From assembly GCF_036013915.1 (NCBI RefSeq), contig NZ_CP107899.1:1984001-2048000 (forward strand): a stretch of 64,000 bases of DNA. The letters run 5' to 3'. The stretch's first letter is position 1. Each line of letters opens with the position of its first letter. The notes beneath the pieces are model-generated. The model was not told the DNA's origin. It searched no databases and worked only from the letters and a program-made list of their open reading frames with translations. Both the position numbers and the translations under genes were made by a program. Shown here in pieces: positions 37,992-60,903 of the stretch. This DNA comes from Streptomyces sp. NBC_00464. Its GTDB lineage: Bacteria; Actinomycetota; Actinomycetes; Streptomycetales; Streptomycetaceae.

Positions 37992-40900
37992 TCAGATGAG
38001 GAGTGGCTCGAAGGGCCAGAAGGGCAGGGATCCGGCCCGTGCCGGATCCTCTGCCTCCCGGCAGGCGATGCTGAGCGGATGGCCCGGTCCCACCGCCGCG
38101 GTCGCCCGGCCCCCGTTCAGCGGGCCCAGCACATGCGCCTCGACGGTCCGCCCGCTCCTCGTCCGGACGATCGTCGCGTTCAGGGCGCAGCCGATCGCCC
38201 ACGGGTGCCTGCTCCCGACTGCCTCCGCCATCAGGGTGCGGGCGCGTTCGATCTCGTAGGCGGCGGCGTCCGGATCGCCCATGGTCCAGCGCATCAGCCC
38301 CAGATTGCCCTCGACGCCGATCGTGTACGGATGCCGGTCACCCAGCATCCTCCCGTAGCCGACCACCACCTGTTCGTGCAGTTCCAGGGCCTGCCGGGGT
38401 TCACCGGCCTCCCTCTGCGCCGTGGCGACGGCCGTGGTGATCAGCAGAGTGAGGGGGTCGCCCTCACCGAGGAGCCGCAGTGCGCTCTGCCTGGTCGCGG
38501 CGAGCGCCGGAAGGGCCGGCCCAGCTCCCTCCAGAGCGTACTGACAGAGCGTCAGGTGATACTGGGCGCGCAGCGTCTGCGGGTTGTTGCTGCCCATCCC
38601 CCGCAGATGACGTCCGACCGTGTCCCGCAGGGCGAGCTCCGCCTCCCGGTGCCGGCCGAGCAGCCGCAGGTCCATGGCGAGGTTGATCTCCGAGTACAGA
38701 GTCGGCGGCGCGTTCGGCGTCAGGACGGACCGGCGTAGCGCCAGGGTGCGTTCGTCCTGTTCCTTCGCCTCCTCGTACCGGCCGAGCAGCCGCAGCGATA
38801 CAGCGAGGTTGTTCTCCGCGTTGAGCGTGCGGGGGTCCTCGGGGCCGAGCAGCCGCCGGTCGCGCTCCAGGATCGAGGCGGAGAGGTCCAGCGCCTCCTG
38901 GTAGCGGCCGAGGCCTCGCAGATCGGCGGCGAGTCCGCCGGCGGCCCGCAGATGGTCCAGGTCCATCTCTCCGCGCTCGGCGACCAGGAAGTCGGCGGTG
39001 GCGCGTTCGACGCGCTCGCTGCCCCTGTAGTCGCCGAGGGCCCGCAGCAGGTTGGCGTAGTGGTGGCGCAGTGCCCAGATCCGTGGGTCGGCCGGTCCGA
39101 GCAGCCGTTCCCAGGACTCCGTCACCGGCCGGGCGAACCGGATGCCGCTGACGTACTCCCCCGAGAGGTACATGTACCGGAGGCAGTTGAGGATCAGCTG
39201 GTGCACCTGCGGGTCCGCACTGTCCACGACCCCCGCCCATTCGAGGTGAGGGGTGAGCGCGGCGTAGGCGGGCCAGTGACGGATCTCCGACGGGTCACCG
39301 GGGTCGGCGGCGGCGAGAGCGCGACAGGCGATGTCGGCGCAGTGCTGCCGTTCGTGTTCCGGCATGTCCTTGCGGACGATCTGGTGGACCATGCGGTGCA
39401 GATGGATCGACTCACCAAAGGACGCGTCCGTCTCCACGCGGACCACCGAGTACCGGCGCAGCTGGCCGATCGCCCGTTCCCAGGTCTGCGGATCATTCAG
39501 CGGGCTCGCTGCCTGTCCCGGCCGTTCCCGGCGCGGAACGGTTCTCAGCAGTCGTACGGGGATGGAGCCGGGTGCGAAGAAGCTGCACAGGCGCAGCAGG
39601 TCGAGGGACTCGGGGACGGTGTCGCGGAGTTTGTTGAGCAGTATCGACCAGGCGGTCTGGAAGGCCAGGGGGAAGTCGGCGGAGACCCTGATGACGTCCT
39701 GGTCGATGCCACCGCCGAGGAGGTCGATGTACTCCTCGACCGACATGTCCGAATCGTTGAGCCACCCCGCCGACTGGTCGAGCAGCACCGGCAGGTCCTC
39801 CAGTGCCTCGGCCAGGCGGCCCGCCTCGGAGTGCGTCAGCCGTGGGGCGCGGCGGCGGATGAAGGCGACCGACTCCTCGCGCTCGTAGACCGGCACCTCG
39901 ACCAGGTTGCTGTCGTGCTCGCTCCATTCGGGGTTGCGGGAGGTGATCAGGACGTGTCCGGGGCCGGTCGGCACCAGGTCCCGGATCTGGTCGGGTTCGT
40001 CCGCGCCGTCCACGATCAGCAGCCACCGGGAGTACGGGTCGCCGCGGCGCAGTGAGTCCCGGACCGCGCGGAGACGTTCGCCGTACTCCGCCCCGGTGGA
40101 CAGGTCCAGCTCGGGAGCGAGTTCAGCGAGCCTCTGCCGGTAGAGCGCACGCCTGTCGCCGGGCACCCACCACACCACGTCGTACTCGGAACCGAAGCGG
40201 TATACGTACTCGGCGGCAAGCTGCGTCTTGCCGACGCCCGGCAGTCCGTGCAGGGTGACGACGGCGGCGTCGGCCCGAGCGCTCTCCAGCGTGTCGAACA
40301 CGACGGAAAACAGTTCCTCGCGCCCGGTGAAGCGGACGTTGCGGCGGGGGATCCCGCCCCACACCTGCGGCATCTCGGCCGGGAAGCGGGAACCCACCCG
40401 CGCCTCGGCCTCCTCGGGCAGGGGCGTCGTGGGCAGACCCAGCCGCTCCAGCAGCCGCCACTCCCCCTCGTTCGCACCGACACCCGTGAGGTCCGCCGCC
40501 TCGAGGAGCGAGGCGGCGCCGGGCAGTGGCGCGGTGGTGACCGACACCGCGGCGAACCGGTCGGGGTCGGGGGCGACGACCTCGCGCAGCGCTCCGTCCC
40601 ACTCCTCGTGGCTGCGCGGGCCGAGCTGGAAGTACCACTCGCTGAACAGGAGCAGAACCCGGCCCGGGGCGAGCGTGAGGTCCCGGAGGGCATCCGCCAG
40701 CGGCAGCTCGGTCGGCGGGTTCCAGCGCTGGTAGCTCACGTTCACCCCGCGCCGCTCCAGCCGGTCCGCGATCCACGCCGCCCAAGCCCGGTTGAACCCG
40801 GCGAAACTGACGGTGACGCTGGAGTCGAGCGCGTCGGCGGTGGCACCGGAGCCGGGCGGGTCGAGATGCGGACCGGACGGGCCGAAGTCCTCGGTCCGGC

Positions 40901-41342
40901 CGGGCGGGCCGGTTCTCCCCGGCAGGTCGGCGAAGCGATCGGCTGGGGCCGGGGACGGTGCCGACTCCGTGATGGAGCACGGCAGTTCTGCCTTGCGTAT
41001 CGCAGCGCCCCACTGGTTGAAGACGGTCAGCCTCAGCACACCGTCGCCGGGCGAGGAGCCCGCGGTGACGAGGAATGTCGCCGGACTGTACGTCCCTCCG
41101 AATCGGTGCATGATGACGTCCGGGTCGTCGAGCACCTCGCAGACGAAGTGGGGTGCTCCGTCCAGGGTGACGCTGAAGGCCACTTCCTCCTCGTCGTACG
41201 GCCACGCGTCGCCGTCCGTCTCCCCCCGGTCGTCGAGAGGTCCGCGCAGGTCGATGCTGACGGCCTGGACGAGGCCGGGTTCGACCTCGGGCAGCCAGCC
41301 CGCGACGGGTTCGATCAGCAAGGGGCGTTCGTCCCGGGTCAC
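37992..41342 (-). CDS. TIR-like/NB-ARC/TPR protein, FxsT type (copy 1)
   Basis: 1116 residues. A roughly 170-residue N-terminal region found only in this copy contains a beta-rich part (SVTLDGAPHFVCEVLDDPDVIMHRFGG). A TIR-like domain follows (174-290: VTVSFAGFNRAWAAWIADRLERRGV ... LLFSEWYFQLGPRSHEEW). The NB-ARC STAND ATPase has Walker A LPGVGKTQL (about 367-375), Walker B LLIVDGAD and sensor ITSRNPEW. TPR repeats run from about 680 to the end, which is WPFEPLLI. STAND proteins of this build act as inducible switches in signalling or defence. The start GTG overlaps the CHAT gene's stop, so it is translated with that module. Confidence 0.85.
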   Translation of the reverse strand: MTRDERPLLIEPVAGWLPEVEPGLVQAVSIDLRGPLDDRGETDGDAWPYDEEEVAFSVTLDGAPHFVCEVLDDPDVIMHRFGGTYSPATFLVTAGSSPGDGVLRLTVFNQWGAAIRKAELPCSITESAPSPAPADRFADLPGRTGPPGRTEDFGPSGPHLDPPGSGATADALDSSVTVSFAGFNRAWAAWIADRLERRGVNVSYQRWNPPTELPLADALRDLTLAPGRVLLLFSEWYFQLGPRSHEEWDGALREVVAPDPDRFAAVSVTTAPLPGAASLLEAADLTGVGANEGEWRLLERLGLPTTPLPEEAEARVGSRFPAEMPQVWGGIPRRNVRFTGREELFSVVFDTLESARADAAVVTLHGLPGVGKTQLAAEYVYRFGSEYDVVWWVPGDRRALYRQRLAELAPELDLSTGAEYGERLRAVRDSLRRGDPYSRWLLIVDGADEPDQIRDLVPTGPGHVLITSRNPEWSEHDSNLVEVPVYEREESVAFIRRRAPRLTHSEAGRLAEALEDLPVLLDQSAGWLNDSDMSVEEYIDLLGGGIDQDVIRVSADFPLAFQTAWSILLNKLRDTVPESLDLLRLCSFFAPGSIPVRLLRTVPRRERPGQAASPLNDPQTWERAIGQLRRYSVVRVETDASFGESIHLHRMVHQIVRKDMPEHERQHCADIACRALAAADPGDPSEIRHWPAYAALTPHLEWAGVVDSADPQVHQLILNCLRYMYLSGEYVSGIRFARPVTESWERLLGPADPRIWALRHHYANLLRALGDYRGSERVERATADFLVAERGEMDLDHLRAAGGLAADLRGLGRYQEALDLSASILERDRRLLGPEDPRTLNAENNLAVSLRLLGRYEEAKEQDERTLALRRSVLTPNAPPTLYSEINLAMDLRLLGRHREAELALRDTVGRHLRGMGSNNPQTLRAQYHLTLCQYALEGAGPALPALAATRQSALRLLGEGDPLTLLITTAVATAQREAGEPRQALELHEQVVVGYGRMLGDRHPYTIGVEGNLGLMRWTMGDPDAAAYEIERARTLMAEAVGSRHPWAIGCALNATIVRTRSGRTVEAHVLGPLNGGRATAAVGPGHPLSIACREAEDPARAGSLPFWPFEPLLI
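39547..40236. repeat. Direct repeat, NB-ARC core of copy 1
   Basis: This stretch is nearly identical to 47634-48326, about 8.09 kb away in the same orientation; long runs match exactly by eye. Outside it the two genes diverge clearly. It codes for the NB-ARC ATPase and the segment after it. Confidence 0.8.
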
Positions 41343-42619
41343 GACGCGTTCGCCTCGGCCGGGTCCGGACCGTCGAGGGAGCGCCCGGTGAGGCGAACGG
41401 TGCTGAACGGGTGCCCGTAGTATTGGAACATCAGGCTGTACAGCAGCCGCAGCACGTTTCGCTGCCCCACGACGTCGAACGCGCCGTCGTCCCCGACCAA
41501 CATCGGCACACCGCCTCCGGCGGTGAACGTCTCGTGGACCTCGGCCCGGAACGCCCGCAGCGCACGGGCCACCGGCCGTTCGGGGTCTTCGGTCAGGGTG
41601 TCGACGATCTGGCGGATCATGACGCGGGCCTCGGCGTCACCCACCTCGCCTGCCGAGACGATGCAGCCGCCGGCGCCCTTGTCGAGGAAGATCTGGGTGA
41701 AGCCCCGCAGTCCCTGCATACCGTCCCCGCTGTAGTCGAGGAAGCGCCCCGAGTGGCAGGCGTTGAGGCAGACCAGTGAGGCGTCCTGGCGCAGGCGGCG
41801 CATACCGAGCCGCTGATAGTCCGCCCACGTCGCACCGGCCAGGGTGAGCTTGCTGAGCTGGTCGTCGAACGTACCGTGACAGCCCATGTACACCAGGCCG
41901 GTCCGCTGTGCTTCGCCGTCGTCGAGGTTGCGGAGGAAGGCCCCGATCCCGAAGTGCGGGCGGTGGTCGTAGCCCTGGAAGAACTCCTGGTCACCGACCA
42001 TGTCGGCGTGGAAGAAGCCCAGCACCGCACCCCTCGGCGCAACCGCCCGGTCCGGGAATCCGCCCAGCCAGCGCGCCACGTCGACGAGCGCGCCCAGAGG
42101 CCCTTCACGGAGCCCGGCGTCCGGGTCCGCGGGCAGCACGAGCGCCTCCCACGGCAGATCGAAACCGGTCTGGTCGAGGACGACGATCTGCAGGGCGTCA
42201 CCATGGGCACGTCGGCACCGGTTGATCCACTCCGTCAGCAGATTCTGGTATCCCGACCAGCGTTCGATGGATTTGAAGAGTTCGGACGGAGGGGCACCGC
42301 CCTGCCGGGCCAGGCCGAGGTTGACGTCGACAGGGCGCAGGAAGCCGTTGCCCGTCGTGTACGGCAGCGTCTCCACACCGTCGCACCATGCCCGGACCCC
42401 GAACGCCTCCGGATCGCCCGGGTCGTCCCTGCGGTGGCGCACGACGAGGATGCGCGCGTACGTGGTGTCCGGCGCCCGGCCGGCGTGAGCGGGGGCGGGA
42501 CCGAGCCGCCGCGGCTCCGCCGTGCGCGCCCTGTCCGGCACCGGGGTCCGCTGCCCGGGCAGTGCCTGAGCGGCCGATGCGACCATGCTGCGGATCAACC
42601 GCAGGCGGTCTTCACCCAT
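41339..42619 (-). CDS. CHAT-domain caspase-like protease
   Basis: 426 residues. The catalytic dyad of the CHAT clan is clear: His248 in VYMGCHGTF and Cys288 in VCLNACHSG. Residues 50-170 form the preceding alpha/beta subdomain (VLDQTGFDLPWEALVLP). It should cleave proteins after activation by a partner, in line with CHAT effectors of bacterial conflict systems. The ATG at 42619 overlaps the vWA gene's stop by 8 bases. Its own stop overlaps the downstream NB-ARC start by 3 bases, so the AAA+, vWA, CHAT and NB-ARC genes are one coupled unit. The longer upstream frame is an overlap artefact. Confidence 0.88.
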   Translation of the reverse strand: MGEDRLRLIRSMVASAAQALPGQRTPVPDRARTAEPRRLGPAPAHAGRAPDTTYARILVVRHRRDDPGDPEAFGVRAWCDGVETLPYTTGNGFLRPVDVNLGLARQGGAPPSELFKSIERWSGYQNLLTEWINRCRRAHGDALQIVVLDQTGFDLPWEALVLPADPDAGLREGPLGALVDVARWLGGFPDRAVAPRGAVLGFFHADMVGDQEFFQGYDHRPHFGIGAFLRNLDDGEAQRTGLVYMGCHGTFDDQLSKLTLAGATWADYQRLGMRRLRQDASLVCLNACHSGRFLDYSGDGMQGLRGFTQIFLDKGAGGCIVSAGEVGDAEARVMIRQIVDTLTEDPERPVARALRAFRAEVHETFTAGGGVPMLVGDDGAFDVVGQRNVLRLLYSLMFQYYGHPFSTVRLTGRSLDGPDPAEANAS

Positions 42620-44525
42620 GGCCGGCCGTCCGCGGATCCCGGTCCTCCCGGCCCGCGACGACCCCACAGCCGAGGGCCTCCGCCAGCGTGGCCGGCAGCC
42701 GGGTGCGCGGATGCCCGCCCGGGTCGACGACCACGCAGTGCAGCCGGCTCCGGCCCAGGGCGCGGAGGCGCGCGGCCACGGCCAGGGCGTCGTCGACGCC
42801 TGCCCGTTGAACCGGGCCTCGGCCACGCAGGCCGGAGCGGCTCACGGACAGCGGTACGTTGCCGCGGCCGTCGGTGACCACGACCAGCAACGCCTCGACG
42901 AGCCCGGCGCGGTGGTGACGGAAGGTGCGCCGCAGCGCGTGCGCGGCCCGGTCGAGGCCGTGCGCGAGCGGAGTGGCCCGGCCGGGTGGACGGGCCAGCG
43001 CGGCCGCGATCCGGGGATCCCGGGTGGAGCGGGCGGTGAACGCGCCGGCCCGCAGCTCGTTCGTCTCTCCCTCGCCGCCGACCTCGACGACCTGGACGGA
43101 TGCCCGGGTGACGTAGGCCCATTGCAGGAACGGTTCGAGCGTGGTGTGCCAGTCCCAGTCCCCGCGGCAGGTGTGGTCGAGCACCAGGGTGAGCATCCGG
43201 ACCGGTTCGGGCGCTCGGACATAGCCCCGCAGGTCCTGCGGGACGATCACCAGCGGTCCCCCGCCACCCCGGACCGCCCGGTATTTCGCGGCCTCCATCG
43301 CGGTACGTACCGGGGCCAGGTCCCACAGGTCGCGGGCGCGCCGCACCCCGACGACCGGGCCCCGCGAGGCGCGGGCGCCCGCCGAGCGCCGGGCGGGTGT
43401 CCGGAGCGTGCCGCCCTCCGGCCCCGGACCCGCCGTGTCCTCCGGGTACGGGGACGCGGAAACCGGCCGCTCCCCGCCCATCGGAGCGGGGCCGAGCGGT
43501 ACTTCCGCTTCCGGGTCGTGCACCGGAACGCCGGTTTCGGTGCCCGGTTCCGGGTTGCGCCGCGACTCGGGCCGGGGCAGGTTCCGGCCGGACTCGGGAA
43601 GCATTGGCGTCTCCTGGTCCGGAGGCGCTTCGGGCGGTGCGTCCGGACGGTGGACGGTACGCAGGCGGATCAGCCGGGCGGCCCGGCCGACGTGGTCGGC
43701 GGTGGCCGTGAGGGGGCGGCCGGAGGGCAAGCTGTCGGCGGCCCCCGCCTGCTCGGCACCGTCCAGCAGGGCCAACGCACGGGCGATACGGGCCAGGGCG
43801 AGCGCCCGGCGGTGTCCGGTGTTCTCCGGGTCCTCCAGGTGTTCCAGCACCGTCGGAGCGAACTCCTCGGAGAGCGTGACGCGGGGGCGCTGCGTCGCCG
43901 GGTCGAGGGCCGTGGCCCACGCGTCGGGGAGCGCTCCGAGCGGGTCGGCGCCCCCGTGCGGCCGCAGTCCCGGGGTCGCGAGGCGTACGGGGAAGCGGTC
44001 CAGCAGGTGCGGGGAGAGCAGTTCGGCGTCCTCGGCCCGGCAGCAGGCCAGCCATCGGGCGCGGGGCCGCCAGTGGTGCCGGATGCCGGAGTGTTCGAGG
44101 GTGGCGGTGTCCGCACCGAGCAGCTGAACGGCCGCCCGCATGCCCGGGACGCTGAGCCGGGCCAGATCGGGCACGACGACGAGCCGGGGGTCGTTGTCCG
44201 TCTCGGCCAGCGGCCCAGGGCCGACGGTGAACTCGACACCTCTCGGTCCGCGGTGCACCCGGGGCCGTATCCACAGGTCCTCGTCGACCGTGGCCGCGTC
44301 GAGCACCGTCCGTGGCACGGTGCGGCCCGGGGCATGCCCCGCGGCCCGGCCGAGCACCTGGGCGAACACCCCGGTGACGGCGGACAGATGCTCAGGAGGG
44401 AGGTCGAAGAGCAGGACGCCGCCGAGGGACGGTTCGAGGGCGGAGCAGACGAGAGCGGCCAGCAGCCGGCGGGAGACGTCGTCCGGCTCCCGGGGATCCT
44501 CGACCTGCTCCGGATGGGCGGACAT
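42612..44525 (-). CDS. ChlD-like protein with degenerate vWA domain
   Basis: 637 residues. The first 300 resemble an inactive magnesium-chelatase-type AAA+ domain (GGVLLFDLPPEHLSAVTGVFAQVLG, without a P-loop lysine). A Pro/Gly-rich linker follows, then a C-terminal von Willebrand A domain (LTLVLDHTCRGDW ... ALLVVVTDGRGN). The metal site DxSxS reads DHTCR, so metal binding is doubtful. Together with the next upstream gene it forms a ChlI/ChlD-style pair. Chelation is unlikely given the context; a chaperone or switch that loads the CHAT protease is more plausible. Confidence 0.78.
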   Translation of the reverse strand: MSAHPEQVEDPREPDDVSRRLLAALVCSALEPSLGGVLLFDLPPEHLSAVTGVFAQVLGRAAGHAPGRTVPRTVLDAATVDEDLWIRPRVHRGPRGVEFTVGPGPLAETDNDPRLVVVPDLARLSVPGMRAAVQLLGADTATLEHSGIRHHWRPRARWLACCRAEDAELLSPHLLDRFPVRLATPGLRPHGGADPLGALPDAWATALDPATQRPRVTLSEEFAPTVLEHLEDPENTGHRRALALARIARALALLDGAEQAGAADSLPSGRPLTATADHVGRAARLIRLRTVHRPDAPPEAPPDQETPMLPESGRNLPRPESRRNPEPGTETGVPVHDPEAEVPLGPAPMGGERPVSASPYPEDTAGPGPEGGTLRTPARRSAGARASRGPVVGVRRARDLWDLAPVRTAMEAAKYRAVRGGGGPLVIVPQDLRGYVRAPEPVRMLTLVLDHTCRGDWDWHTTLEPFLQWAYVTRASVQVVEVGGEGETNELRAGAFTARSTRDPRIAAALARPPGRATPLAHGLDRAAHALRRTFRHHRAGLVEALLVVVTDGRGNVPLSVSRSGLRGRGPVQRAGVDDALAVAARLRALGRSRLHCVVVDPGGHPRTRLPATLAEALGCGVVAGREDRDPRTAGHG

Positions 44526-44532
44526 CCGCGGC

Positions 44533-45955: not shown

Positions 45956-48949
45956 TCAGATGATCTGAGGCTCGAAATCCCAGTAGGGCCGTACGCGGGA
46001 CCGTGCCGACACCGTGTGGACGTGTTGGGCACCCAGTGTCTTCGTCAGGTCGTCCAGCGCCTCCGACTCGACCTTGTCCGCATGTCGCAGGTCGCGCAGG
46101 CCCCGGAGGTCCGCCGCGTGCGCGATACGGGCGGAGAGCGTCAGCGGGTGCGTGCGCCCCAGAACTTCGATAGCCCGGGTGCTGATCGCGTCCGTCAGCG
46201 CGGCAGCGGATTCCGGGTCGCCCACGAGATTCCGCAGGGCAGAAGCGTTGATCGCGCAGCCCAGGGTCCAGGGGTGGTTCTCGCCCACGGACCTTCCCAT
46301 CTCGGTGAGCGCTTCCTCCAGCAGGTGGTGTGCCTGGTCCCGCTCGCCGACGTTGCGCATGATCAGGGCATGGTTGGCACGGACGCCCGCGACATAGGGA
46401 TGCTCCTCACCGAGCATGTCGACATAGCCACCCACGACCTTCTCGCTTATGGCCCTGGCCTGGTCGATGTCGGCATGCTCCCGGGCGAAGAAACTCTGAC
46501 CGGCCGCGAACATCATGGTCGTCGGGTCGGTCTCACCCAGTACCCGCTCGCCCCGTTCCAGTACCCGGGTGAAGAGTTCCGCGGCCTCGCTCCGCTTGCC
46601 CGAGCGGTACAGGCAGAGGGCGAGGTTGTGCTCGGCCTTCAGGGTCTGCGGGTTGTCCTGGCCCATCACGGTGCGATGCACCTGAGCGCTCTGGGCCTGG
46701 AGTGATTCGGCCTCGGTGTACCGGCCGAGCAGGCGCAGGTCGGTGGCGTAGTTGATCTCGGAGTAGAGCGTCCAGCTGTGGCGCGGACGGAGCAGCTGCC
46801 TACGGGAGTCCAGGGTGCGCCGGTTGAGTTCCAGCGATTCCTTGTACCGGCCCAGCAGCCGGAGCGAAATGGCCAGGTTGTTCTGCGCGTTGAGCGTCCG
46901 CGAATCCTGATCACCCAGCAGTTCCCGGTAGGCGCCCAGGATCCACTCGGACATCTCATGAGCCTCTTCGTACCGCCCCAGCCCCCGCAGATCGGCCGCC
47001 AGACCGCCGGCCGCACGCAGGTGCTCCAGGTCCTGTGCACCCCGCTCGGCCCGCAGATGATCCACAGCGGCCCGCTCGATGGCCTCGGTCCCGGCGTAGT
47101 CACCGACGGCCCGCAGAAGATTGGCGTAGTTGTAGCTCAGGTCCCACACGCGCGGGTGGTTCTCGCCCAGCAGCTCCCGCCAGGCCTCCATGGCACGGGC
47201 ACCCAGCTTGATCCCGGCCCGGTACTCCCCGGAGAGGTACATGTAGCGCAGGCAGTTGAGCACCAGACTGTGCACCGCCGGATCCGTGCTGCGCAGGACG
47301 TCGGCCCACTTCAGGTGCGGAGTGATCTCGGCGTACGTGGGCCACAGCCGGGTGTCCGTGGGGCGGCCGGGGTCAGCCGCCGCCAGGGCCCGGCGTACGA
47401 CGTCGATGAACTCCCGGCGGTCCTGGTCCGGCATGTCCTTGCGGACGATCTGGTGGACCATGCGGTGCAGGTAGATCGACTCACCGGACGACGCGTCGTC
47501 GATGATCGAGTCGTGGGACTCCAGGCGGACGACGGAGTACTGACGCAGCTGACCGATCGCCTTGTTCCACAGCAGCGGGTCGTTCATCAGGCCCGAGAGC
47601 TGTTCGGGCAGCTCCCCGGACGGCATTTCCTTCAGCAGTCGTACGGGGATGGAGCCGGGCGCGAAGAAGCTGCACAGGCGCAGCAGGTCGACGGACTCGG
47701 GGACGGTGTCGCGGAGTTTGTTGAGCAGTATCGACCAGGCGGTCTGGAAGGCGAGAGGGAAGTCAGCGGAGACCTTGACGACGTCCTGGTCGATGCCGCC
47801 GCCGAGGAGGTCGATGTACTCCTCGACCGACATGTCGGAGTCGTTGAGCCATCCCGCGGTCTGGTCGAGCAGCAGCGGGAGGTCCTCCAGCGCCTCGGCC
47901 AGCCGGTCCGCCTCGGTGCGGGTGAGGCGCGGGGCGCGGCGGCGGATGAAGGCGACCGACTCCTCGCGCTCGTAGACCGGCACCTCCACGAGGTTGCTGT
48001 TGTGCTCGCTCCACTCCGGGTTCCGGGAAGTGATCAGGACGTGTCCGGGGCCGGTCGGCACCAGGTCCCAGATCTGGTCGGGTTCGTCCGCGCCGTCCAG
48101 GATCAGCAGCCAGTGGCCGTGCGGGTCGCCGCGGCGCAGCGAGTCGCGGACCGCGCGGAGGCGTTCGCCGTATTCGGCGCCGGTGGACAGACCGAGTTCC
48201 GGAGCGAGTTCGGCGAGCTTCTGCCGGTACAGCGCACGCCGGTCCGCGGGCACCCACCACACCACGTCGTACTCGGAACCGAACCGGTACACGTACTCGG
48301 CGGCAAGCTGCGTCTTGCCTACCCCCGACATGCCGTGGAGCGTGACCACACCGGCGCCGGTCCCGGCGTCCTGGAGCGCCTGGTAGGCCTTGCTGAGCAG
48401 TTCCTCGCGGCCGGTGAAACGGGTGTTGCGACGTGGAACCCCGCCCCACACCTCGGGGGTGTCGAACGGAAAGCGGGGCCCGGTCCGGGCCTCGGTGCCC
48501 TCAGGCAGTGCGGTCGTCGGCAGGCCCAGGCGTGCGAGCAGCCGGCGTTCGGCCTCGACCGCACCGACGTTGGTCAGGTCGGCGGCGCCGAACACGGATG
48601 TGGCGCCGGGCAGTGCCGAGGTCGTGATGGAGACCGCGGCGAACCGGTCGGGGTCGGGGGCGACGACCTCGCGCAGGGCCCGGTTCCACTCCTCGTGGCT
48701 GCGCGGGCCGAGCTGGAAGTACCAGTCGCTGAGCAGGACCAGGACCTGCCCTCGGGAGAGCGTCAGATCCTGCAGCGCGTCCTCCAGCGGGAGCTCCACC
48801 TGGGGGTTCCAGCGCTGCTGGACGACCGTCACTCCGCGCCGCTCCAGCCGGTCCGCGATCCATGCCGCCCAGGCCCGGTTGAACCCGGCGAAACTGAGGG
48901 TGACGGTCCGCGCCCCGATTGCTCCAACTTGCTTACGCGTACCGGGCAT
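45956..48949 (-). CDS. fxsT: TIR-like/NB-ARC/TPR protein, FxsT type (copy 2)
   Basis: 997 residues. A TIR-like domain begins near residue 15 (VTLSFAGFNRAWAAWIADRLERRGV ... LLSDWYFQLGPRSHEEW). NB-ARC follows with Walker A MSGVGKTQL (about 207-215), Walker B LLILDGAD and ITSRNPEW. About ten TPR-like units then run to the C-terminus YWDFEPQII. It matches the FxSxx-COOH-system tetratricopeptide protein FxsT in layout and lies 81 bases downstream of the RiPP enzymes. It probably senses or responds to the matured peptide. The ATG at 48949 is the only good start. Confidence 0.85.
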   Translation of the reverse strand: MPGTRKQVGAIGARTVTLSFAGFNRAWAAWIADRLERRGVTVVQQRWNPQVELPLEDALQDLTLSRGQVLVLLSDWYFQLGPRSHEEWNRALREVVAPDPDRFAAVSITTSALPGATSVFGAADLTNVGAVEAERRLLARLGLPTTALPEGTEARTGPRFPFDTPEVWGGVPRRNTRFTGREELLSKAYQALQDAGTGAGVVTLHGMSGVGKTQLAAEYVYRFGSEYDVVWWVPADRRALYRQKLAELAPELGLSTGAEYGERLRAVRDSLRRGDPHGHWLLILDGADEPDQIWDLVPTGPGHVLITSRNPEWSEHNSNLVEVPVYEREESVAFIRRRAPRLTRTEADRLAEALEDLPLLLDQTAGWLNDSDMSVEEYIDLLGGGIDQDVVKVSADFPLAFQTAWSILLNKLRDTVPESVDLLRLCSFFAPGSIPVRLLKEMPSGELPEQLSGLMNDPLLWNKAIGQLRQYSVVRLESHDSIIDDASSGESIYLHRMVHQIVRKDMPDQDRREFIDVVRRALAAADPGRPTDTRLWPTYAEITPHLKWADVLRSTDPAVHSLVLNCLRYMYLSGEYRAGIKLGARAMEAWRELLGENHPRVWDLSYNYANLLRAVGDYAGTEAIERAAVDHLRAERGAQDLEHLRAAGGLAADLRGLGRYEEAHEMSEWILGAYRELLGDQDSRTLNAQNNLAISLRLLGRYKESLELNRRTLDSRRQLLRPRHSWTLYSEINYATDLRLLGRYTEAESLQAQSAQVHRTVMGQDNPQTLKAEHNLALCLYRSGKRSEAAELFTRVLERGERVLGETDPTTMMFAAGQSFFAREHADIDQARAISEKVVGGYVDMLGEEHPYVAGVRANHALIMRNVGERDQAHHLLEEALTEMGRSVGENHPWTLGCAINASALRNLVGDPESAAALTDAISTRAIEVLGRTHPLTLSARIAHAADLRGLRDLRHADKVESEALDDLTKTLGAQHVHTVSARSRVRPYWDFEPQII
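47634..48326. repeat. Direct repeat, NB-ARC core of copy 2
   Basis: Second copy of the near-identical core at 39547-40236, offset about 8.09 kb with a 3-base length difference. Homologous recombination between the two would delete or amplify the Trypco1/AAA+/vWA/CHAT genes and leave one hybrid NB-ARC gene. Confidence 0.8.
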
Positions 48950-49030: not shown

Positions 49031-50422
49031 TCAGGTCCAGGATGATCCGTTCCTCTGCTGCCATATCACCCTCGTGGTGTTCACATACGCGTCCGCGCGC
49101 GCCAGGTGACCCGTGGGTGGCGGCGAATCCTCCAGACGGTGGTAGAGCGTGATCATCTCGTTGACGAGCACGCGCCCCTCGGCGGTCAGCAGGGCCGATC
49201 CGGCCAGTACGGGCAGTACGGCCCCGACCTGCTGACGGCAGCGGGCATGTTCGGCCCAGGCCAGGTCGCGGTGGGTGACGCGTCGCGCCCCGAGCGCGAA
49301 CCGCTGCCAGTAGTCGGCGAGCGCGAGGTGCGAGTAGGCACCCTGGAACAACCCGTCGAAGGGCCTGGGGTCGGCGCGCCAGGGGGCGAAGTGGCGGGGC
49401 GCGGCGTCCTCGTGGTGCAGCGGGACGAGTGCGCCGAGCGCGGCGAGCTTGGTGTGCTGGAGCTCGTGGACGAGCGTCGAGGCGAAGTAGGCGGGGGTGG
49501 CGGGTCTACTGCTGAGGACCGCGCCGAAGGCCTCGCGCCGGGTGCCGCTGCAGTGGGCCGCGGCCTCGCCGGTGGGCCCCGAACCGGGCGGCGGGCCGAG
49601 CGGGACGAGGCAGCGCAGCAGCACGGCCGCTTCGGTGAGCCGGTGCTCGCCGCCGAGCCGGAGCAGCGGTTCGACTCCGGCCCAGGACGCGATCCACGCC
49701 TTGCGCTCCTGGTCGTCGACATGGGTGGCAGCGCTCAGTCCGCGTGGTTCGAGGCCCGTTCCGCGGATGCGGTACGGGTCGACGTCGTCCAGGGGCACGG
49801 GGCCGCCGCCGGGCAGCGCGGGATGCAGCATGAGCACCGGGAGCCAGCGGGGGTCGGCCGAGGTCAGGGTTCCGTCCGGCTGGGCCCGTACCTCCAGGGG
49901 CGGTCCGCCGGCCGGCCGTACGGTCATCCCCCCGTTCTCGAAGGCGATTTCGGCCGGTCCGTCCTGGGCTCGTACCGCCCCGAGCGTGGGCAGGGAGAGC
50001 TGTCCGCCGCGGGCCGTGAGCCGGGCGGTGACGGGCGTCCCCGCGCGGATCGCGGCCGCTGCCGCGAGGGCGGTCAGATGGGCCAGGCCGGCAAGGAGAT
50101 CGGGATCCGTCGCGGTGTGCGCGGTGAGGCCGGCCAGGAGACCCTCCGCCCAGGGACCCGTCATGGGATGGAACAGCACGGCGCGCACTGCGGCCCGGTC
50201 GGTGCGCTCGGCGGCTTCGAGGAGCGCCCAGTCCCTGTGCAGCCGGTCGAGCAGTGGGGGCGGGCACACGGTCACGGGCGCTGCGGCGGCGGCGTCGAGC
50301 AGGGCCCGGAGGAGGACGAGACGGCGGGTGTCCTGGTCGCGTACGAGCAGGCCGAGAGTGTCGGCGGTGCCTTCGGTGCGGCCGAGTTCGCGCAGGGCGC
50401 GGTCGGGGACTGCGGAGCTCAT
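49031..50422 (-). CDS. HExxH-motif peptide-modifying enzyme (probable beta-hydroxylase)
   Basis: 463 residues, with the metal motif HELQH at 319-323 (STLVHELQHTKLAAL) and a downstream histidine in QGAYSHLALADYW (near 365) as likely third ligand. This is the C-terminal pattern of the HExxH family found beside FxsB-type radical SAM enzymes. Members of the family have been characterised as Fe(II)/2-oxoglutarate-dependent peptide beta-hydroxylases rather than peptidases. In some clusters the domain is an inactive extension of FxsB; here it is a separate gene with an intact motif. The ATG overlaps the radical SAM stop by 4 bases. The substrate should be the FxsA-like peptide. Confidence 0.85.
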   Translation of the reverse strand: MSSAVPDRALRELGRTEGTADTLGLLVRDQDTRRLVLLRALLDAAAAAPVTVCPPPLLDRLHRDWALLEAAERTDRAAVRAVLFHPMTGPWAEGLLAGLTAHTATDPDLLAGLAHLTALAAAAAIRAGTPVTARLTARGGQLSLPTLGAVRAQDGPAEIAFENGGMTVRPAGGPPLEVRAQPDGTLTSADPRWLPVLMLHPALPGGGPVPLDDVDPYRIRGTGLEPRGLSAATHVDDQERKAWIASWAGVEPLLRLGGEHRLTEAAVLLRCLVPLGPPPGSGPTGEAAAHCSGTRREAFGAVLSSRPATPAYFASTLVHELQHTKLAALGALVPLHHEDAAPRHFAPWRADPRPFDGLFQGAYSHLALADYWQRFALGARRVTHRDLAWAEHARCRQQVGAVLPVLAGSALLTAEGRVLVNEMITLYHRLEDSPPPTGHLARADAYVNTTRVIWQQRNGSSWT

Positions 50423-51660
50423 GGGGGGTCTCCTGCGGTTGCGTCGGCGAGCCGGTCCGCCACGTGGCGGACCAGCCGGTCGAGGTCGGCGCAGTAGACG
50501 GACGGATTGACGAAGCCGTTCTCTGCGCGGTACCGGTGGGCGTAGTGGCCGCCGCCGCAGACGCTCAGCAGCGGGCAGGCGCGGCAGACGGCGGCGAGTG
50601 CGCCGGCCCCTGCCTGGCGTGCGGCGACGCCGGGGTGGCGCAGGGCGTCGTCGAAGGTGTGGCGGAAGACGTCGAGCCCGGTGGCGGCCGCGGTGTCGTA
50701 GGCGGACTTGAGGGAGTCGACCTGTTCGATCGATCCGTCCGTCTCGACCACGACCGCGTTGACCGGGTCGAGCCCCAGGGACTCGGTGGCGGCGGGCAGC
50801 CCGAGGAGCAGGGCGATGCACTCCTCGAAGAGCCTGATCCGGGTCTCCCGCCGGGCGGCCGGCCACCAGCGGTCGAAGACGGTGCACAGCCAGTCGCCGT
50901 ACGGGGTGGCGCGGCCCGGTCGCGGGCCGGCGGGCGGACCTGCCCGGTCCGCCAGGCCCGGCGGCGGAGTGGTCCAGTTGCCGTGCGGCAGCAGGAGGTC
51001 CAGGGCCGGGGGGCGCAGGGCGAGCAGTGACTCGTACATCTCCAGGGGGTCGGTGCGCGGGTCGACGACGGTGAGGATGCCCGCGTACGCCTCCGGGTGG
51101 CGGTCGGCGAGCAGCCGGGCGCCACGCGAGGCGGCGGGCCAGGAGGGGCGGCCCGCATGGTCGGTGCGCAGGGTGTTGTGCGCGGCCAGGCCGCCGTCCA
51201 GGCTGATGCCGATGCGTATGCCGTGCCGGGCGAGGGTGGCGACCTTCGCGTCGGTGAGCAGGGTGGCGTTGGTCTGCACGGTGGCGTGGACGGTGCAGTG
51301 GCCGGGCACCCGCTCACGCAGCCGGTCGGCGAGGGCGGCGAGCCGTTCGGGGCCGGCGAGGAGGGGTTCGCCCCCGTGCAGGACGAGGGCGACATGACGG
51401 AGCCGGTGGGTGGCCGCGTGTTCGGCGATCCGGTCCGCGGTGCGGTCGAGGACATCGGGCGAGGCGGCGGCGGGCCGGGTCCGCCACGTCGCGTCGGGCC
51501 CCTCGTAGAGGTAGCAGTAGCGGCACGCCAGGTTGCAGCGGCCGTGCACCTTCACGATGAACTGCCCGAAGGGCACGGGAGTCACGTCCGAGGGGACCGG
51601 CACCGGTGCCGGTTCCGGGCGCGCCCCCTCCGCGCGCCGCGGCGTCGTTGGTCGGGCCAC
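50419..51660 (-). CDS. fxsB: Radical SAM/SPASM cyclophane synthase FxsB
   Basis: 413 residues. The [4Fe-4S]/SAM motif is CNLACRYC (Cys42, Cys46, Cys49), followed by the SAM-contact glycines ALVLHGGEPLL. The C-terminal SPASM-like cysteines are in VCRACPLLSVCGGG and NPSVYCADLDRL, the latter typical of FxsB. The family joins an aromatic side chain to the beta-carbon of the residue two positions on, giving a three-residue cyclophane. The start GTG at 51660 lies 162 bases downstream of the precursor gene. Confidence 0.92.
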   Translation of the reverse strand: MARPTTPRRAEGARPEPAPVPVPSDVTPVPFGQFIVKVHGRCNLACRYCYLYEGPDATWRTRPAAASPDVLDRTADRIAEHAATHRLRHVALVLHGGEPLLAGPERLAALADRLRERVPGHCTVHATVQTNATLLTDAKVATLARHGIRIGISLDGGLAAHNTLRTDHAGRPSWPAASRGARLLADRHPEAYAGILTVVDPRTDPLEMYESLLALRPPALDLLLPHGNWTTPPPGLADRAGPPAGPRPGRATPYGDWLCTVFDRWWPAARRETRIRLFEECIALLLGLPAATESLGLDPVNAVVVETDGSIEQVDSLKSAYDTAAATGLDVFRHTFDDALRHPGVAARQAGAGALAAVCRACPLLSVCGGGHYAHRYRAENGFVNPSVYCADLDRLVRHVADRLADATAGDPP

Positions 51661-51822
51661 TCGGGCACCCCCGTGCTGTACGTCTGCCGGGACGGATCCC
51701 GGAAATGGCCGCCCGGGCCGGTCGGTCTCCCCGCGTCGTGCGGCGAGGGCCGGTCGGTCCCGGGCGGTGAAGTCGTGGTCGTCGGCGCCCCGGACCGCGT
51801 GGCTGCGGGGCGGCGCCCCGCC

Positions 51823-52014: not shown

Positions 52015-52054
52015 CACGCCTCCCCGTAGTGCAGCACCGGGACCGCCGCGCCGC

Positions 52055-52167
52055 GCTCGCCGTTGAGCGGACACCGCCGGTCCCGCGTCCCTGACCCGCC
52101 TCGGGCCTTTCGTGTGGATCACACCGGACGTCACCGGTCACGCAGCGCCCTGTGCTCGCCGTTGAGC
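52055..52167 (-). promoter_or_regulatory. Paired 14-base repeats upstream of fxsA
   Basis: GCTCGCCGTTGAGC occurs exactly at 52055-52068 and again at 52154-52167. Each copy is a partial dyad (GCTC ... GAGC around a central CG). They bracket the fxsA promoter region and are 99 bases apart; the distal one ends 2 bases before the stop codon of the upstream gene. They look like two sites for one dimeric regulator. Confidence 0.6.
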
Positions 52168-52169
52168 AC

Positions 52170-55664: not shown

Positions 55665-55671
55665 CAGCGCG

Positions 55672-56691: not shown

Positions 56692-56765
56692 AGCGTGTTC
56701 CTCGTTGTCACTCGCCTGCGGGCGGCCACCGTCGAACCTGCCTTACCGTAGCGATCCGGAGTAAC

Positions 56766-56788
56766 CCCCGTAAGGGGGAGGCCCCTTG
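56766..56788. terminator. Overlapping hairpins between trypsin-like and MoxR genes
   Basis: CCCCC-GTAA-GGGGG at 56766-56779 overlaps AAGGGG-GAGG-CCCCTT at 56773-56788. They sit in the 127-base gap and offer two mutually exclusive stems, which could attenuate transcription into moxR or simply terminate the upstream pair. Confidence 0.4.
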
Positions 56789-56818
56789 ACCCCTGGGCGC
56801 GAGGTGGAAAACTTTGCG

Positions 56819-58903
56819 TCACGGCGCCTCCAGGAACGCGTCGGAATCCGGCAGTGCGTGATTCGGGTCTTCGTAGTACAGGGCAACTCCGTCGGACCAG
56901 AACATCTCCGTACGTCCCGCCCCCACTCCTCTTCTCAGCTCATGGATCCTCCACGGCAGCCGGTCCCGGGTGCGGGCGCCCGACACGGCGTCGGCCACGC
57001 GTCGGTGGAACTCCCTGCAGACCGTGTCGGCCTCGGCGGCCCTTCGCTGCAGCAGGACGGCCCCGAAGCCGGCGTCGATCAGCCGGACCACCCCGGCGGT
57101 GATGCCGGAGTCCGGCCGGCTGCCGTAGCGGCAGAGGACCGGCACGGTGTCGTGCGCCAGGGTCCGCAGCCGCGTCACATCCGGTACACGTACCCTCAAA
57201 TCGTCCTCGCAGTCGACCACTTCGGCATGGATCCCCGGCTCCGTCCCGGCGTCCCGGCGCGCCCGCCGCTTGTCGGCCGGCCCCTGGTACGAACTGCGCA
57301 GGACCACCGGCCGTACGACTCCGAGCGGCAGCCCGTTCGAGGGAAGCACCCACTCGTCGACCGGCAGCCCAAAGAGCGCGGGTGCCACGACGACCTGGAG
57401 CATCGCCGGACTGCCCGGCTCGTCGCACCGCCGGAAGGCCTCGGCGAGCGCGGCGGCCAGCCGGTCGGGAACGGTGCCGAGCGGGGCCCCGCGGCTGTCC
57501 TCGTCGATGGGCTCCGCCCCCGAGGCCTGCCGGTCGACGGCGACCCGCCAGTCGTACTGGTCGCGGGCCCAGCCCTGGAGGTCCACGTTCAGCACGACTC
57601 CGTCGCGGTCCCCGTGCGGGACGGGTTCGCTCACGGACGGGTACACGGCCTGCTGGCGGTTCTCTTCCAGGCGCAGCCGGATGGCCGCCCACTCCATGTC
57701 GAGCTGCCCGCGCAGATCCCGGGAGAGTTCGACGTCGGCGATCCGCTTCACCCACCCCCACAGCGCCTTGGCGTTCGTGACGGAGAGCTGTCCGCAGGGC
57801 CGGTCCGCCGTGAGGACGCCCATGCAGTAGCGCACGATCAGCTCGAAGCGGGCCTGCCGGTCGTGGGCGCGGGTCTCGTACAGCACCCCCAGACCGTCCC
57901 GCCAGCCGCGCGGGGCCGGCCGGTGGTCACGGGAGTAGACACCGGGCAGGCGGTCGAGGAGGGCGAGCAGACTGCGGGTGCTGGCCGGTGGCGGGAGTTC
58001 GGCGAGCCGCCCGAGCAGGTCCGCGCGCAGTCGGGGGCCGAGGACGCCGGCGGAGGGTCCCGGCAGTTCGCTCTGCACGTCGGTCCAGGTCCGCTCGGTG
58101 CCGACCGCGACGTTGTGCCGGTCCGCGTGGTAGCGGTCGTGGGCGTGGAACACGGACTGGTAGGTGTCGTCGGTCTCGGTCTCGATGGGTGTGGACGGCA
58201 CCTCCAGGGTGCGCAGCCGCTCGATCCCGACGGCCGTGCCGCCCTGCTGCCTGTCCAGCCGCGACTTGACCACCCCGACCACCTCGCCCCGGGCGAAGTC
58301 GATCACGGGCCCGCCGGACATACCCGGCTCCAGCCAGCCCTCGTCGAGGAGGACGACCTGCTCCACATCGTCGGCGGCGCCGTAGGAACCGTTCACCCGG
58401 TAGGTACCGTTGCGCAGCTTCAGCCCGCCGCCGGGCGAGTTGACCCACCCCACGCAGCGGATGTCGCCGCCGCGGAGCAGGGCCCCGGAGCGCTCGGCGA
58501 CGTACACGCAGGCGTGCTCGACGGGCCGGCGGAGCTGGATGAGCGCCAGGTCGGGGGCGGGCCAGGCGGTGGTCCCCGGCGGCCGGGTGCCGGGCATCGC
58601 GACGACGACCTTGCCGGGGACTTCGGCGAGTTCGCCGCTGTGCCGGTCCCCCTTGAACACCACGTTCACCATGCCCCCCTCCCCCCGCATGGCCACGTGG
58701 GCGCACGTCAGGATCCAGCTCGGAGCGATGAAGAACCCGCTCCCCAGGAACTCCCCTCCCGGGGCCTGACCGCCCGGTCCGTCAGGGGCATACCCGGACC
58801 CCGGTCGATGGATGCGCACGGTCGCGTCCTCCACGAGGCCCAGAAGAGCAGCGTCCGACTGTCCCTGACCGCCCTCTGCGCCCCCGTCGGGGTCCGAGGT
58901 CAT
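56819..58903 (-). CDS. Trypsin-like serine protease with VMAP-type C-terminal region
   Basis: 694 residues. The protease domain has an intact triad: His69 in LTCAHV, Asp118 in APDLALIQL, Ser196 in PGMSGGPV. There is no signal peptide, so it should be cytosolic. Residues about 270-430 are helical and look like a small effector-associated domain. The C-terminal third (VVLNVDLQGWARDQYDWRVAV, DEWVLPSNGLPLGVVRPVVLR, SGITAGVVRLIDAGFGAVLLQRR) resembles the C-terminal region of vWA-MoxR-associated proteins. It would be the effector triggered by the MoxR/vWA pair. Its ATG overlaps the Trypco1-like stop. Confidence 0.82.
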   Translation of the reverse strand: MTSDPDGGAEGGQGQSDAALLGLVEDATVRIHRPGSGYAPDGPGGQAPGGEFLGSGFFIAPSWILTCAHVAMRGEGGMVNVVFKGDRHSGELAEVPGKVVVAMPGTRPPGTTAWPAPDLALIQLRRPVEHACVYVAERSGALLRGGDIRCVGWVNSPGGGLKLRNGTYRVNGSYGAADDVEQVVLLDEGWLEPGMSGGPVIDFARGEVVGVVKSRLDRQQGGTAVGIERLRTLEVPSTPIETETDDTYQSVFHAHDRYHADRHNVAVGTERTWTDVQSELPGPSAGVLGPRLRADLLGRLAELPPPASTRSLLALLDRLPGVYSRDHRPAPRGWRDGLGVLYETRAHDRQARFELIVRYCMGVLTADRPCGQLSVTNAKALWGWVKRIADVELSRDLRGQLDMEWAAIRLRLEENRQQAVYPSVSEPVPHGDRDGVVLNVDLQGWARDQYDWRVAVDRQASGAEPIDEDSRGAPLGTVPDRLAAALAEAFRRCDEPGSPAMLQVVVAPALFGLPVDEWVLPSNGLPLGVVRPVVLRSSYQGPADKRRARRDAGTEPGIHAEVVDCEDDLRVRVPDVTRLRTLAHDTVPVLCRYGSRPDSGITAGVVRLIDAGFGAVLLQRRAAEADTVCREFHRRVADAVSGARTRDRLPWRIHELRRGVGAGRTEMFWSDGVALYYEDPNHALPDSDAFLEAP

Positions 58904-59472
58904 GCCCCGCCGCCGTCGGTGTCGTCCGCGCCGTCCGGGTGTGCCGGTGCGCCGGGGGCTGCCCCGGCGTGCGGGAGGCCCGCGGGTGCGCCGGCGGGCG
59001 GCGACGGGCGTACGGGCGCCGGGGGCGCGAACGGAACGGGTGGCATCGCGGGGGCGGGTGCCTGCGCCGGCACGGGTACGGGCACGGGCTCCGGCGCCGG
59101 CGGATCGACCGGAGGTCCGCCGCCGTTCCAGGTGAGCGTGACCTTGATCGCTCCCTTGGCCTCGCCGTCCGCGAGCAGCCCGACGACCTTGCCCGACTTG
59201 GCGGTGAGCTCGATCCCGAACTCGACGCTGACCTCGTCCGGCCGCACGGCACGCAGCGGCACGGCGAGTGAGCGCGCGACACTGGTCACCACGGAGTGCA
59301 GGCTCTCGACCCGGGCCTGCACCTGGTCGGTGAGGTTCCCGAATCCGGTGTCCGTGAACGTCAGGCCACCGGGCTCCGGACGGTCCAGCTCCTCGGCTCC
59401 CGAGATCCGCGCCCAGACCGGTGTGCCGTCCGGCATCTCGATGCGCGTAATGCGGGCCCCACTGTCACCCAT
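58900..59472 (-). CDS. Trypco1-like (CU044_2847 family) protein with Pro-rich tail
   Basis: 190 residues. Residues 1-125 carry the trypsin-co-occurring pattern (DEVSVEFGIELTAKSGKVVGLL ... AIKVTLTW), homologous in layout to the 137-residue protein at 45474-45887. A Pro/Ala-rich tail of about 65 residues follows. It is coupled to the trypsin-like gene by a 4-base overlap and heads the module. Function is unknown; close pairing suggests an inhibitor, substrate or docking subunit of the protease. Confidence 0.75.
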   Translation of the reverse strand: MGDSGARITRIEMPDGTPVWARISGAEELDRPEPGGLTFTDTGFGNLTDQVQARVESLHSVVTSVARSLAVPLRAVRPDEVSVEFGIELTAKSGKVVGLLADGEAKGAIKVTLTWNGGGPPVDPPAPEPVPVPVPAQAPAPAMPPVPFAPPAPVRPSPPAGAPAGLPHAGAAPGAPAHPDGADDTDGGGA

Positions 59473-60874: not shown

Positions 60875-60903
60875 TCATCCGCGCTCCCCAGGAGGTCAGA
60901 TCC

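Follow-up and report, generated by a model that had tools for sequence, protein, structure and literature searches.

Do the genes that flank a modified-peptide locus in Streptomyces sp. NBC_00464 work as one system, or do unrelated systems share an address there? The window analysed here is a 64,000-nucleotide stretch (contig NZ_CP107899.1, positions 1,984,001 to 2,048,000) of the 8.96-Mb genome (G000), and 13 consecutive minus-strand genes occupy window positions 37992–59472, forming an island in which a precursor peptide and its maturases lie between two protease-containing modules. An earlier reading made from the letters alone (the original prediction) had described twelve consecutive minus-strand genes; the strand and all of its named domains were recovered at the coordinates given below, whereas the count is 13 with the 63-amino-acid (aa) FxsA included, and both NB-ARC proteins carry an N-terminal TIR domain that it did not name. 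We propose, with a probability of roughly 40%, that the whole island is one composite conflict system, of the self-protection or abortive-infection type, with two motor-protease cassettes. The genes are as follows, in order of transcription.

58900..59472, minus strand: Trypco1 protein A (trypsin-co-occurring domain 1), 190 aa; PF19493 68.2 bits, NF041216 63.9 bits; 4-base overlap with the next gene
56819..58903, minus strand: VMAP protein, trypsin-like peptidase plus VMAP-C, 694 aa; PF13365 56.4 bits, PF20028 116.2 bits
55672..56691, minus strand: MoxR-type AAA+ ATPase, 339 aa; PF07728 (AAA_5) 29.4 bits
52170..55664, minus strand: vWA protein (vWA_A), 1164 aa, helical TPR-like C-terminus; NF041121 SAV_2336_NTERM 483 bits
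51823..52014, minus strand: FxsA precursor peptide, 63 aa, C-terminus LWGFNNAF; TIGR04268 45.6 bits, cut-off 28
50419..51660, minus strand: FxsB, predicted cyclophane-forming radical S-adenosylmethionine (SAM)/SPASM maturase, 413 aa; TIGR04269 433 bits, cut-off 370
49031..50422, minus strand: predicted alpha-ketoglutarate (aKG)-HExxH-type peptide beta-hydroxylase, about 463 aa; TIGR04267 163 bits, cut-off 40; 4-base overlap with fxsB
45956..48949, minus strand: TIR-NB-ARC-TPR protein 1 (TIRNB1), 997 aa; NF040586 FxSxx_TPR 879 bits, cut-off 300; TIR_2 56.9 bits, NB-ARC 33.1 bits
45474..45938, minus strand: Trypco1 protein B (TrypcoB), up to 154 aa; PF19493 51 bits
44533..45477, minus strand: ChlI/BchI-like AAA+ ATPase (AAA_B), 314 aa; profile A7, 247 bits against BchI structure 1g8p
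42612..44525, minus strand: ChlD-like protein (vWA_B), 637 aa, with a degenerate AAA domain, a linker, and a vWA domain with altered metal ion-dependent adhesion site (MIDAS)
41339..42619, minus strand: CHAT caspase-like protease, 426 aa; PF12770 51.9 bits, cut-off 24
37992..41342, minus strand: TIR-NB-ARC-TPR protein 2 (TIRNB2), 1116 aa, fast-evolving N-terminal extension; NF040586 778 bits, cut-off 300; TIR_2 55.1 bits

Module A denotes the trypsin-VMAP, MoxR, and vWA genes of the right half, and module B the TrypcoB, ChlI-like AAA_B, ChlD-like vWA_B, and CHAT genes of the left half. Several adjacent genes overlap by a few bases, and the widest gaps (162 and 155 bases by open reading frame coordinates) lie on either side of fxsA. 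A promoter and terminator scan of 41–60 kb gave one promoter-like and two terminator-like sites, with shuffled sequences averaging 0.2 and 3.1; the scan was uninformative, so operon structure is inferred from gene spacing alone.

Module B combines a chelatase-type motor with a CHAT protease

Profile comparison identified AAA_B as a homologue of ChlI and vWA_B as a homologue of ChlD, the motor subunits of Mg/Co chelatases, with vWA_B aligning with ChlD over 556 columns. A first structure model of vWA_B (5 rows, predicted local distance difference test score [pLDDT] 55) was superseded by a model from 31 rows (pLDDT 77), whose best structural matches, MCM and BchI chains, were tied; the profile comparison is therefore what supports the ChlD assignment. 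Walker A and B motifs of AAA_B were present in 21/21 rows, whereas in vWA_B the MIDAS reads DHT[CS][RH] and Walker A is absent from the displayed rows. This pair differs from the chelatases in being adjoined by CHAT and Trypco1, in having no subunit H gene among the 13 genes, and in scoring below the chelatase equivalog cut-offs (AAA_B, 221.5 vs 466.95; vWA_B, 33.4 vs 499.55).

The CHAT protein exceeded the peptidase family cut-off, and its conserved His and Cys, found in 12/12 aligned rows and in 21/21 rows of a wider motif count, are presumably the catalytic residues. At E ≤ 0.001 this protein matched PF12770 only, with no VMAP-C, and no beta-propeller was found fused to vWA_B, which has no Pfam match and follows ChlD along the aligned columns. 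AAA_B did pass the cut-off of the bpMoxR domain (PF20030, 39.5 bits against 27), although chelatase models score much higher. The original prediction had likened both modules to the vWA-MoxR ternary type; this applies fully to the right half, which has VMAP-C, but in the left half VMAP-C is lacking and the motor is of the chelatase I/D type.

Caspase-type VMAP systems, which pair a caspase with an alpha/beta-hydrolase in the passages of Kaur et al. (2020, PMC7159879) drawn on here, likewise place a caspase-like protease beside an AAA+/vWA pair, but module B has neither a recognised alpha/beta-hydrolase nor VMAP-C, and Trypco1, the partner of trypsin in those passages, here stands beside CHAT. 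Relative to the literature searched, the ChlI/ChlD/CHAT module with its Trypco1 and the second TIR-NB-ARC-TPR protein appear to be new.

The right half is a known VMAP ternary system

The right half (Trypco1, trypsin-VMAP, MoxR, vWA, FxsA, FxsB, HExxH, and TIR-NB-ARC-TPR) corresponds to the FxSxx-type VMAP ternary system already described in the passages of Kaur et al. (2020, PMC7159879), and half of the earlier interpretation is already in print. VMAP-C and Trypsin_2 domains (116.2 and 56.4 bits) occur in one protein, and the MoxR AAA+ gene adjoins that of the vWA protein (29.4 and 483 bits), with MoxR Walker A/B intact and the vWA_A MIDAS reading D[AT]SSS in 6/6 rows each. The His, Asp, and Ser motifs of trypsin-VMAP were present in 4, 5, and 6 of 6 rows, respectively, the remaining rows being gapped there. 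In the FxSxx type as described by Kaur et al., the vWA protein has TPRs only and a separate TIR-AP-ATPase lies downstream; the downstream TIR-NB-ARC-TPR gene is present here, and the TPRs of vWA_A were assigned by eye and from that description, vWA_A having no Pfam match to them. FxsA, FxsB, and the HExxH protein all exceeded their curated cut-offs, as expected of FxSxx-COOH ribosomally synthesized and post-translationally modified peptides (RiPPs). All right-half genes, including the downstream TIR-NB-ARC-TPR gene, are shared with the published system, whereas its text passages describe no ChlI/ChlD/CHAT module or second TIR-STAND protein.

In 91 genomes of the genus, we counted 135 VMAP-C loci (135 of 137 rows kept, two second pieces of a single gene being dropped) and 91 FxsB loci. 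Twenty-nine of the 91 FxsB loci lay within 10 kb of VMAP-C, against 0.36 expected under uniform placement; seen from the other side, 29/135 VMAP-C loci (21%) were near an FxsB, and about 20% of actinobacterial VMAP ternary systems are stated to have a peptide-processing system (Kaur et al. 2020, PMC7159879, in part). The linked FxsB proteins belonged almost entirely to the class scoring ≤500 bits (28/56, vs 1/35 above 500 bits); those above 500 bits are usually part of a longer frame.

Module B is rare and linked to fxs

A search of 249 Streptomycetaceae genomes (E ≤ 1e-30) recovered the CHAT gene in six. In all five of the other CHAT-positive genomes, the remaining genes stand in the same order beside kgd, except for the first Trypco1 gene, which was seen in two (G144 and G226), was not found in G043, and lies beyond the stretches fetched for G097 and G121. 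With the order repeated in 5/5 genomes, the arrangement is not due to chance.

When the vWA_B alignment was compared with 84,980 species genomes, 23 loci were obtained, all in Streptomyces or Actinacidiphila; 21 of these have upstream sequence (L040 and L046 are cut), and FxsB lies upstream in 21/21. Together with the window, G144, G226, G121, and G674 (L045 and L054 being identical to G043 and G097), this gives 26 distinct loci with upstream sequence, and module B lies downstream of FxsB in 26/26, a count that is neither unbiased nor one of independent events, most of these loci sharing one address by descent. Since the CHAT and vWA_B searches were seeded with Fxs-linked sequences (for the vWA_B scan, two peptide patterns from five Fxs-linked rows), diverged unlinked copies of module B may be missed. 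The original prediction held that the protease modules assort with fxsAB, and the survey of fxsB neighbourhoods that it proposed bears this out for both the MoxR/vWA/trypsin (VMAP-C) and CHAT modules: independent assortment was not seen, and the 26/26 and 29/91 linkages and the 5/5 conserved order lie far above chance.

A profile search of 394 genomes of the class matched four: the window genome, G144, a Frankia, and, weakly, G488. The Frankia locus (L089; G439, Frankia canadensis) encodes ChlI-like, ChlD-like, and CHAT proteins followed by a short protein resembling the N-terminus of TIRNB2 (36%), possibly a simpler form, and no second module B copy of this type was found in 35 genomes of the Frankia order. 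G488 showed two AAA_B-like matches (36% and 42%) and one FxsB-like match (35%) to the window proteins.

The island occupies a modular slot beside kgd

The island occupies a fixed slot beside kgd, for which empty sites exist. Its flanking genes are outside the system:

34039..37908, plus strand: kgd (2-oxoglutarate dehydrogenase), left flank, converging on the island; PF00676, PF16870; conserved neighbour
60748..62800, plus strand: DUF4097 and PadR-family genes, right flank

Of the 29 VMAP-linked FxsB loci, 12 were fetched, and all 12 adjoin kgd. Their TIRNB1–kgd gap is empty in seven, holds a second TIRNB gene in two (L097 and L107), and holds other DNA in three (L099, L104, and L106), which in L104 includes an IMPDH-family gene. 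Eight FxsB-less genomes were searched; in six of the seven fetched (G618 was not among them), the right-flank genes of the window lie within about 5.5 kb of kgd, while L120 showed no flank match. No repeats of at least 40 nt were found at the island ends (37700–60200 scanned), repeats being seen only within both TIR-NB-ARC genes and fxsB. The single tRNA of the window lies 18 kb left of the island, with 4.5 kb read on the right side.

Module content varied within this slot. Fxs and module B occur without module A in L037 and L044, VMAP-C being located elsewhere in both genomes, and L116 keeps vWA_A, Fxs, and module B with no MoxR or VMAP seen; module A is therefore not an obligate partner of Fxs and module B. 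In L115, a Trypco1-like match (41%) is the sole trace of module B.

Type-2 islands (L049, L052, L053, and L110 in G674), which carry two FxsA-FxsB pairs, are the main second context for the linkage of module B to fxs. Their order is a relative of the vWA_A C-terminus, FxsA1-FxsB1, TIRNB1, FxsA2-FxsB2, module B, and TIRNB2. The L053 contig stops inside module B; in L049, which is fragmented over multiple frames, no first precursor was recovered. Downstream of L049, L052, and L110, kgd was not seen as far as read. VMAP-C had no match in the L052 and L053 genomes, a weak match elsewhere in the L049 genome, and four matches elsewhere in G674. In L109 (G684:C1:1938000-1957900), a type-2 island with two FxsB genes, the position of module B is taken by genes for a TIR protein and MoxR and by a vWA-like frame (labelled by eye, with no Pfam match); the locus also has a 1545-aa frame ending in TIR-NB-ARC-TPR. 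From the comparison of type 1, type 2, and L109, the peptide-maturase and TIR-STAND parts recur while the motor cassette varies, and the position after the second FxsA-FxsB pair may be a swappable slot, filled by ChlI/ChlD/CHAT in L110 or TIR/MoxR/vWA in L109.

The two TIR-STAND proteins appear partly homogenised

Rate, motif, and tree counts omit L049, L040, L042, and L046 (the last three truncated where their contigs end), L045 and L054 (second records of G043 and G097), and L052 and L053 (type 2). Walker A/B motifs were present in 21/21 rows of both TIRNB1 and TIRNB2, as were CxxxCxxC in FxsB and the HExxH motif in its protein. Identity between TIRNB1 and TIRNB2 of the same genome was higher in the nucleotide-binding (NB) part (65–94%) than in the TPR part (43–65%) in 21/21 loci, although part of this difference is constraint, because NB is also more conserved than TPR between orthologues. 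For NB, the own paralog was nearer than the median TIRNB2 orthologue at 21/21 loci. G144 illustrates a crossing: its own-paralog NB identity is 94% against 79% between the G000 and G144 TIRNB2 orthologues, whereas the TPR values are 51% and 69%. The TIRNB1 and TIRNB2 genes of the window share a 300-nt stretch at 84%; the same-genome control for homogenisation was one distant unlinked homologue (L019, 31% to TIRNB1).

Phylogenetic trees differed between the domains. Own-paralog cherries were found at 5/21 loci, from several lineages, in the NB tree and at none in the TIR and TPR trees. In the TPR tree, 17/21 TIRNB1 proteins fell in a clade without TIRNB2 proteins, and agreement of tips with the protein 1 versus protein 2 split was 38/42, compared with 26/42 for NB and 28/42 for TIR.

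The plain reading of these alignments and trees would be that the NB region and its surroundings repeatedly underwent gene conversion or domain replacement, and own-paralog similarity in NB together with TPR separation suggests two sensors sharing one switch. The homogenisation could reflect matched subunits of one oligomer; as a rival explanation, tandem proximity alone may have caused it, and divergence of the TPRs alone could halt gene conversion there, conversion needing similarity.

Evolutionary rates and distance covariation

Mean pairwise identities over six loci were 80% for MoxR, 71% for FxsB, 68% for TIRNB1, 65% for AAA_B, 60% for vWA_A, 55% for HExxH and TIRNB2, 53% for vWA_B, 50% for TrypcoB and VMAP (two rows cut), and 47% for CHAT, with 67% for Trypco1 A (n = 3) and 58% for FxsA (n = 4). 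The peptide core was near-invariant, while VMAP, CHAT, TrypcoB, vWA_B, and TIRNB2 were among the least conserved. The N-terminal extension of TIRNB2 is a candidate variable sensor or adaptor; its residues 1–170 (window 40833–41342), ahead of the first Pfam match, were the least conserved part compared, at 36% mean identity.

Covariation of distances was calculated over 17 loci (L037 and L044 left out) with the kgd distance regressed out; the 2000 permutations ignore relatedness, and the analysis is exploratory. FxsB correlated with TIRNB1 at 0.51 (0/2000 permutations as high) and with HExxH at 0.28 (11/2000). TrypcoB, AAA_B, vWA_B, and CHAT formed one block (0.70–0.89), which TIRNB2 joined (0.78 with vWA_B and 0.77 with CHAT); TIRNB2 also correlated with TIRNB1 at 0.48, and HExxH correlated with module B at 0.38–0.54. 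FxsB–TIRNB2 was 0.49 over all 19 loci but 0.11 without the two VMAP-less loci. The original prediction suggested that the peptide may be a signal or trigger that is sensed by the NB-ARC proteins and passed to the proteases. Such sensing is conjectural: FxsB and TIRNB1 distances covary in most subsets, and those of FxsB and module B do not.

Peptide core and maturation

FxsA ends in LWGF followed by [NDT] and then N (21) or S (1) in 22/22 distinct type-1 module B loci in which a precursor was found. Precursor, maturase, and hydroxylase pass the cut-offs of FxsA/FxsB cyclophane RiPPs, but the S position of FxSxx, after the invariant LWG, is almost always N. The precursor cores of L052 (type 2) are AYHEDSPGVER and AMAFYEDGPYQL. 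In L110, bases 1412–1681 of the reversed strand hold a precursor frame with AYHEDSP twice, possibly a tandem FxsA duplication. The 12 kgd loci without module B have the cores LWGF (5), ILNAFDS (3), LAEYTQS (1), and AYYED (1), no precursor being found in two. The idea that module B is tied to one peptide core was dropped, as cores differ in type-2 loci and LWGF occurs without module B; the distribution indicates that core type follows the FxsB lineage, not module B.

Kaur et al. (PMC7159879, in part) call the HExxH protein a metallopeptidase, whereas NCBIfam names the family beta-hydroxylase. In the portions of a preprint used here (PMC12636437), a fused rSAM-HEXXH protein is an aKG-dependent beta-hydroxylase, a finding attributed there to Morishita et al. 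2024, and two HEXXH enzymes hydroxylate and also oxidatively cut backbones. Because of this chemistry, an oxidative activity is, by analogy, more probable for the HExxH protein of the island than the metallopeptidase role assigned to it in 2020.

The modified peptide might instead be the effector, a toxin or secreted antimicrobial; the enzymes would mature it, trypsin or CHAT would release it, and the STAND proteins would serve as guards. The wording of Kaur et al. (PMC7159879, in part), who proposed a "peptide toxin or signal", leaves room for this, as does the backbone cutting by the two aKG-HEXXH enzymes of PMC12636437. We regard it as quite unlikely: domain-library scans recognised no exporter or immunity gene among the 13 genes, and the core is near-invariant over type-1 loci rather than diversifying.

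A possible mechanism and its rivals

If the island is one composite system, FxsB and the HExxH enzyme would staple and hydroxylate the FxsA C-terminus, and the modified FxsA may function intracellularly alongside the TIR-NB-ARC-TPR proteins, either as a licensing ligand or as an amplifier. TIRNB1 would belong to the peptide/VMAP side and TIRNB2 to module B; since their NB parts appear repeatedly homogenised, the two may join one oligomer, with the TPRs receiving different inputs. The two motor-protease cassettes, the known MoxR/vWA/trypsin-VMAP and the new ChlI/ChlD/CHAT, would act with these sensors: upon a trigger, the motors could release or activate the proteases, the TIR domains would become active as well, and the cell would stop growing or die. 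A bolder form of this proposal, which we consider unlikely as a whole, is a RiPP-gated immune circuit, in which the stapled, hydroxylated peptide would license both TIR-STAND proteins; their conversion-matched NB domains would form a mixed oligomer, their TPRs would take two inputs, and the oligomer would fire the chelatase motor to unleash CHAT, beside the VMAP-trypsin switch.

Several observations weigh against a single system. FxsB occurs in 192 of the 249 Streptomycetaceae genomes and module B in 6, module B is absent from 12/12 fetched VMAP-linked loci (of 29), five of which have the LWGF core, and Fxs is missing from the 26.7-kb contig of the Frankia relative. FxsB showed no covariation with AAA_B (0.09; 563/2000 permutations as high) or CHAT (0.07; 647/2000) over the 17 loci. 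When the set was restricted to the 14 Streptomyces loci excluding L037 and L044, in which nearly everything but FxsB correlates, the FxsB–TIRNB1 correlation dropped to 0.21. The crossing expected of conversion was seen in only 92/420 ordered locus pairs for NB (72/420 for TIR), and own paralogs were closer than the median orthologue at 19/21 loci in TPR and in TIR as well, because TIRNB2 diverges fast. For the 10 proteins scanned, PADLOC matches were no more than weak and partial, and no functional reports on module B were found in the literature.

Many of these points would fit defence-island cargo, that is, a kgd slot that gathers unrelated systems, with module B and Fxs-VMAP as neighbours without functional coupling. 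The fixed address with empty sites, the variable TIRNB1–kgd place in the 12 loci without module B (7 empty, 2 with a second TIRNB, 3 with other DNA), the absence of module A on its own in some loci, the Frankia copy without Fxs, and FxsB and module B distances that do not covary all favour it. However, the 26/26 linkage extends to type-2 islands, with module B immediately after the second FxsA-FxsB pair, and the distances of TIRNB2 track those of module B, its NB sequence being homogenised with that of TIRNB1; we consider cargo somewhat unlikely, though the strongest of the alternatives. A developmental programme, in which the island governs programmed cell death or differentiation in the mycelium and not phage defence, would agree with the tie of VMAP systems to multicellular bacteria noted by Kaur et al. 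(2020, PMC7159879, in part), but patchy presence (module B in 6/249 genomes) and fast divergence fit conflict better than a conserved developmental role, and we find this about as unlikely as the peptide-effector reading.

Four features appear new: the AAA+/vWA/CHAT module with its chelatase ancestry; its consistent co-occurrence with fxs among the Streptomycetaceae loci recovered; the island type with two peptides; and a sensor pair that is partly homogenised. Cyclophane peptides of the FxsA kind are widespread, to judge from the FxsB count above, and the "toxin or signal" of Kaur et al. (PMC7159879, in part) is the one role proposal found for them; a peptide system between two motor-protease switches with paired sensors makes the question of their role directly testable. 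If the composite reading is true, a chelatase-derived motor would join the list of candidate immune switches.

Other fxs-related loci

The window genome has a second fxs locus, L019 (G000:C1:6355778-6363501), with FxsB in a 756-aa frame that includes an HExxH-like region, plus a TIR-NB-ARC-TPR gene; FxsB and HExxH are thus one frame in this copy but separate genes in the island, and the VMAP-module proteins of the window had no match within the 20 kb read. All four FxsB-family matches of the genome lie on contig 1. L020 and L021 (G000:C2:44262-77045) encode three FxSxx_TPR proteins above the family cut-off on the 245-kb second contig. In another genome, L043:16496-19225 holds a third TIR-NB-ARC-TPR-like gene past TIRNB2.

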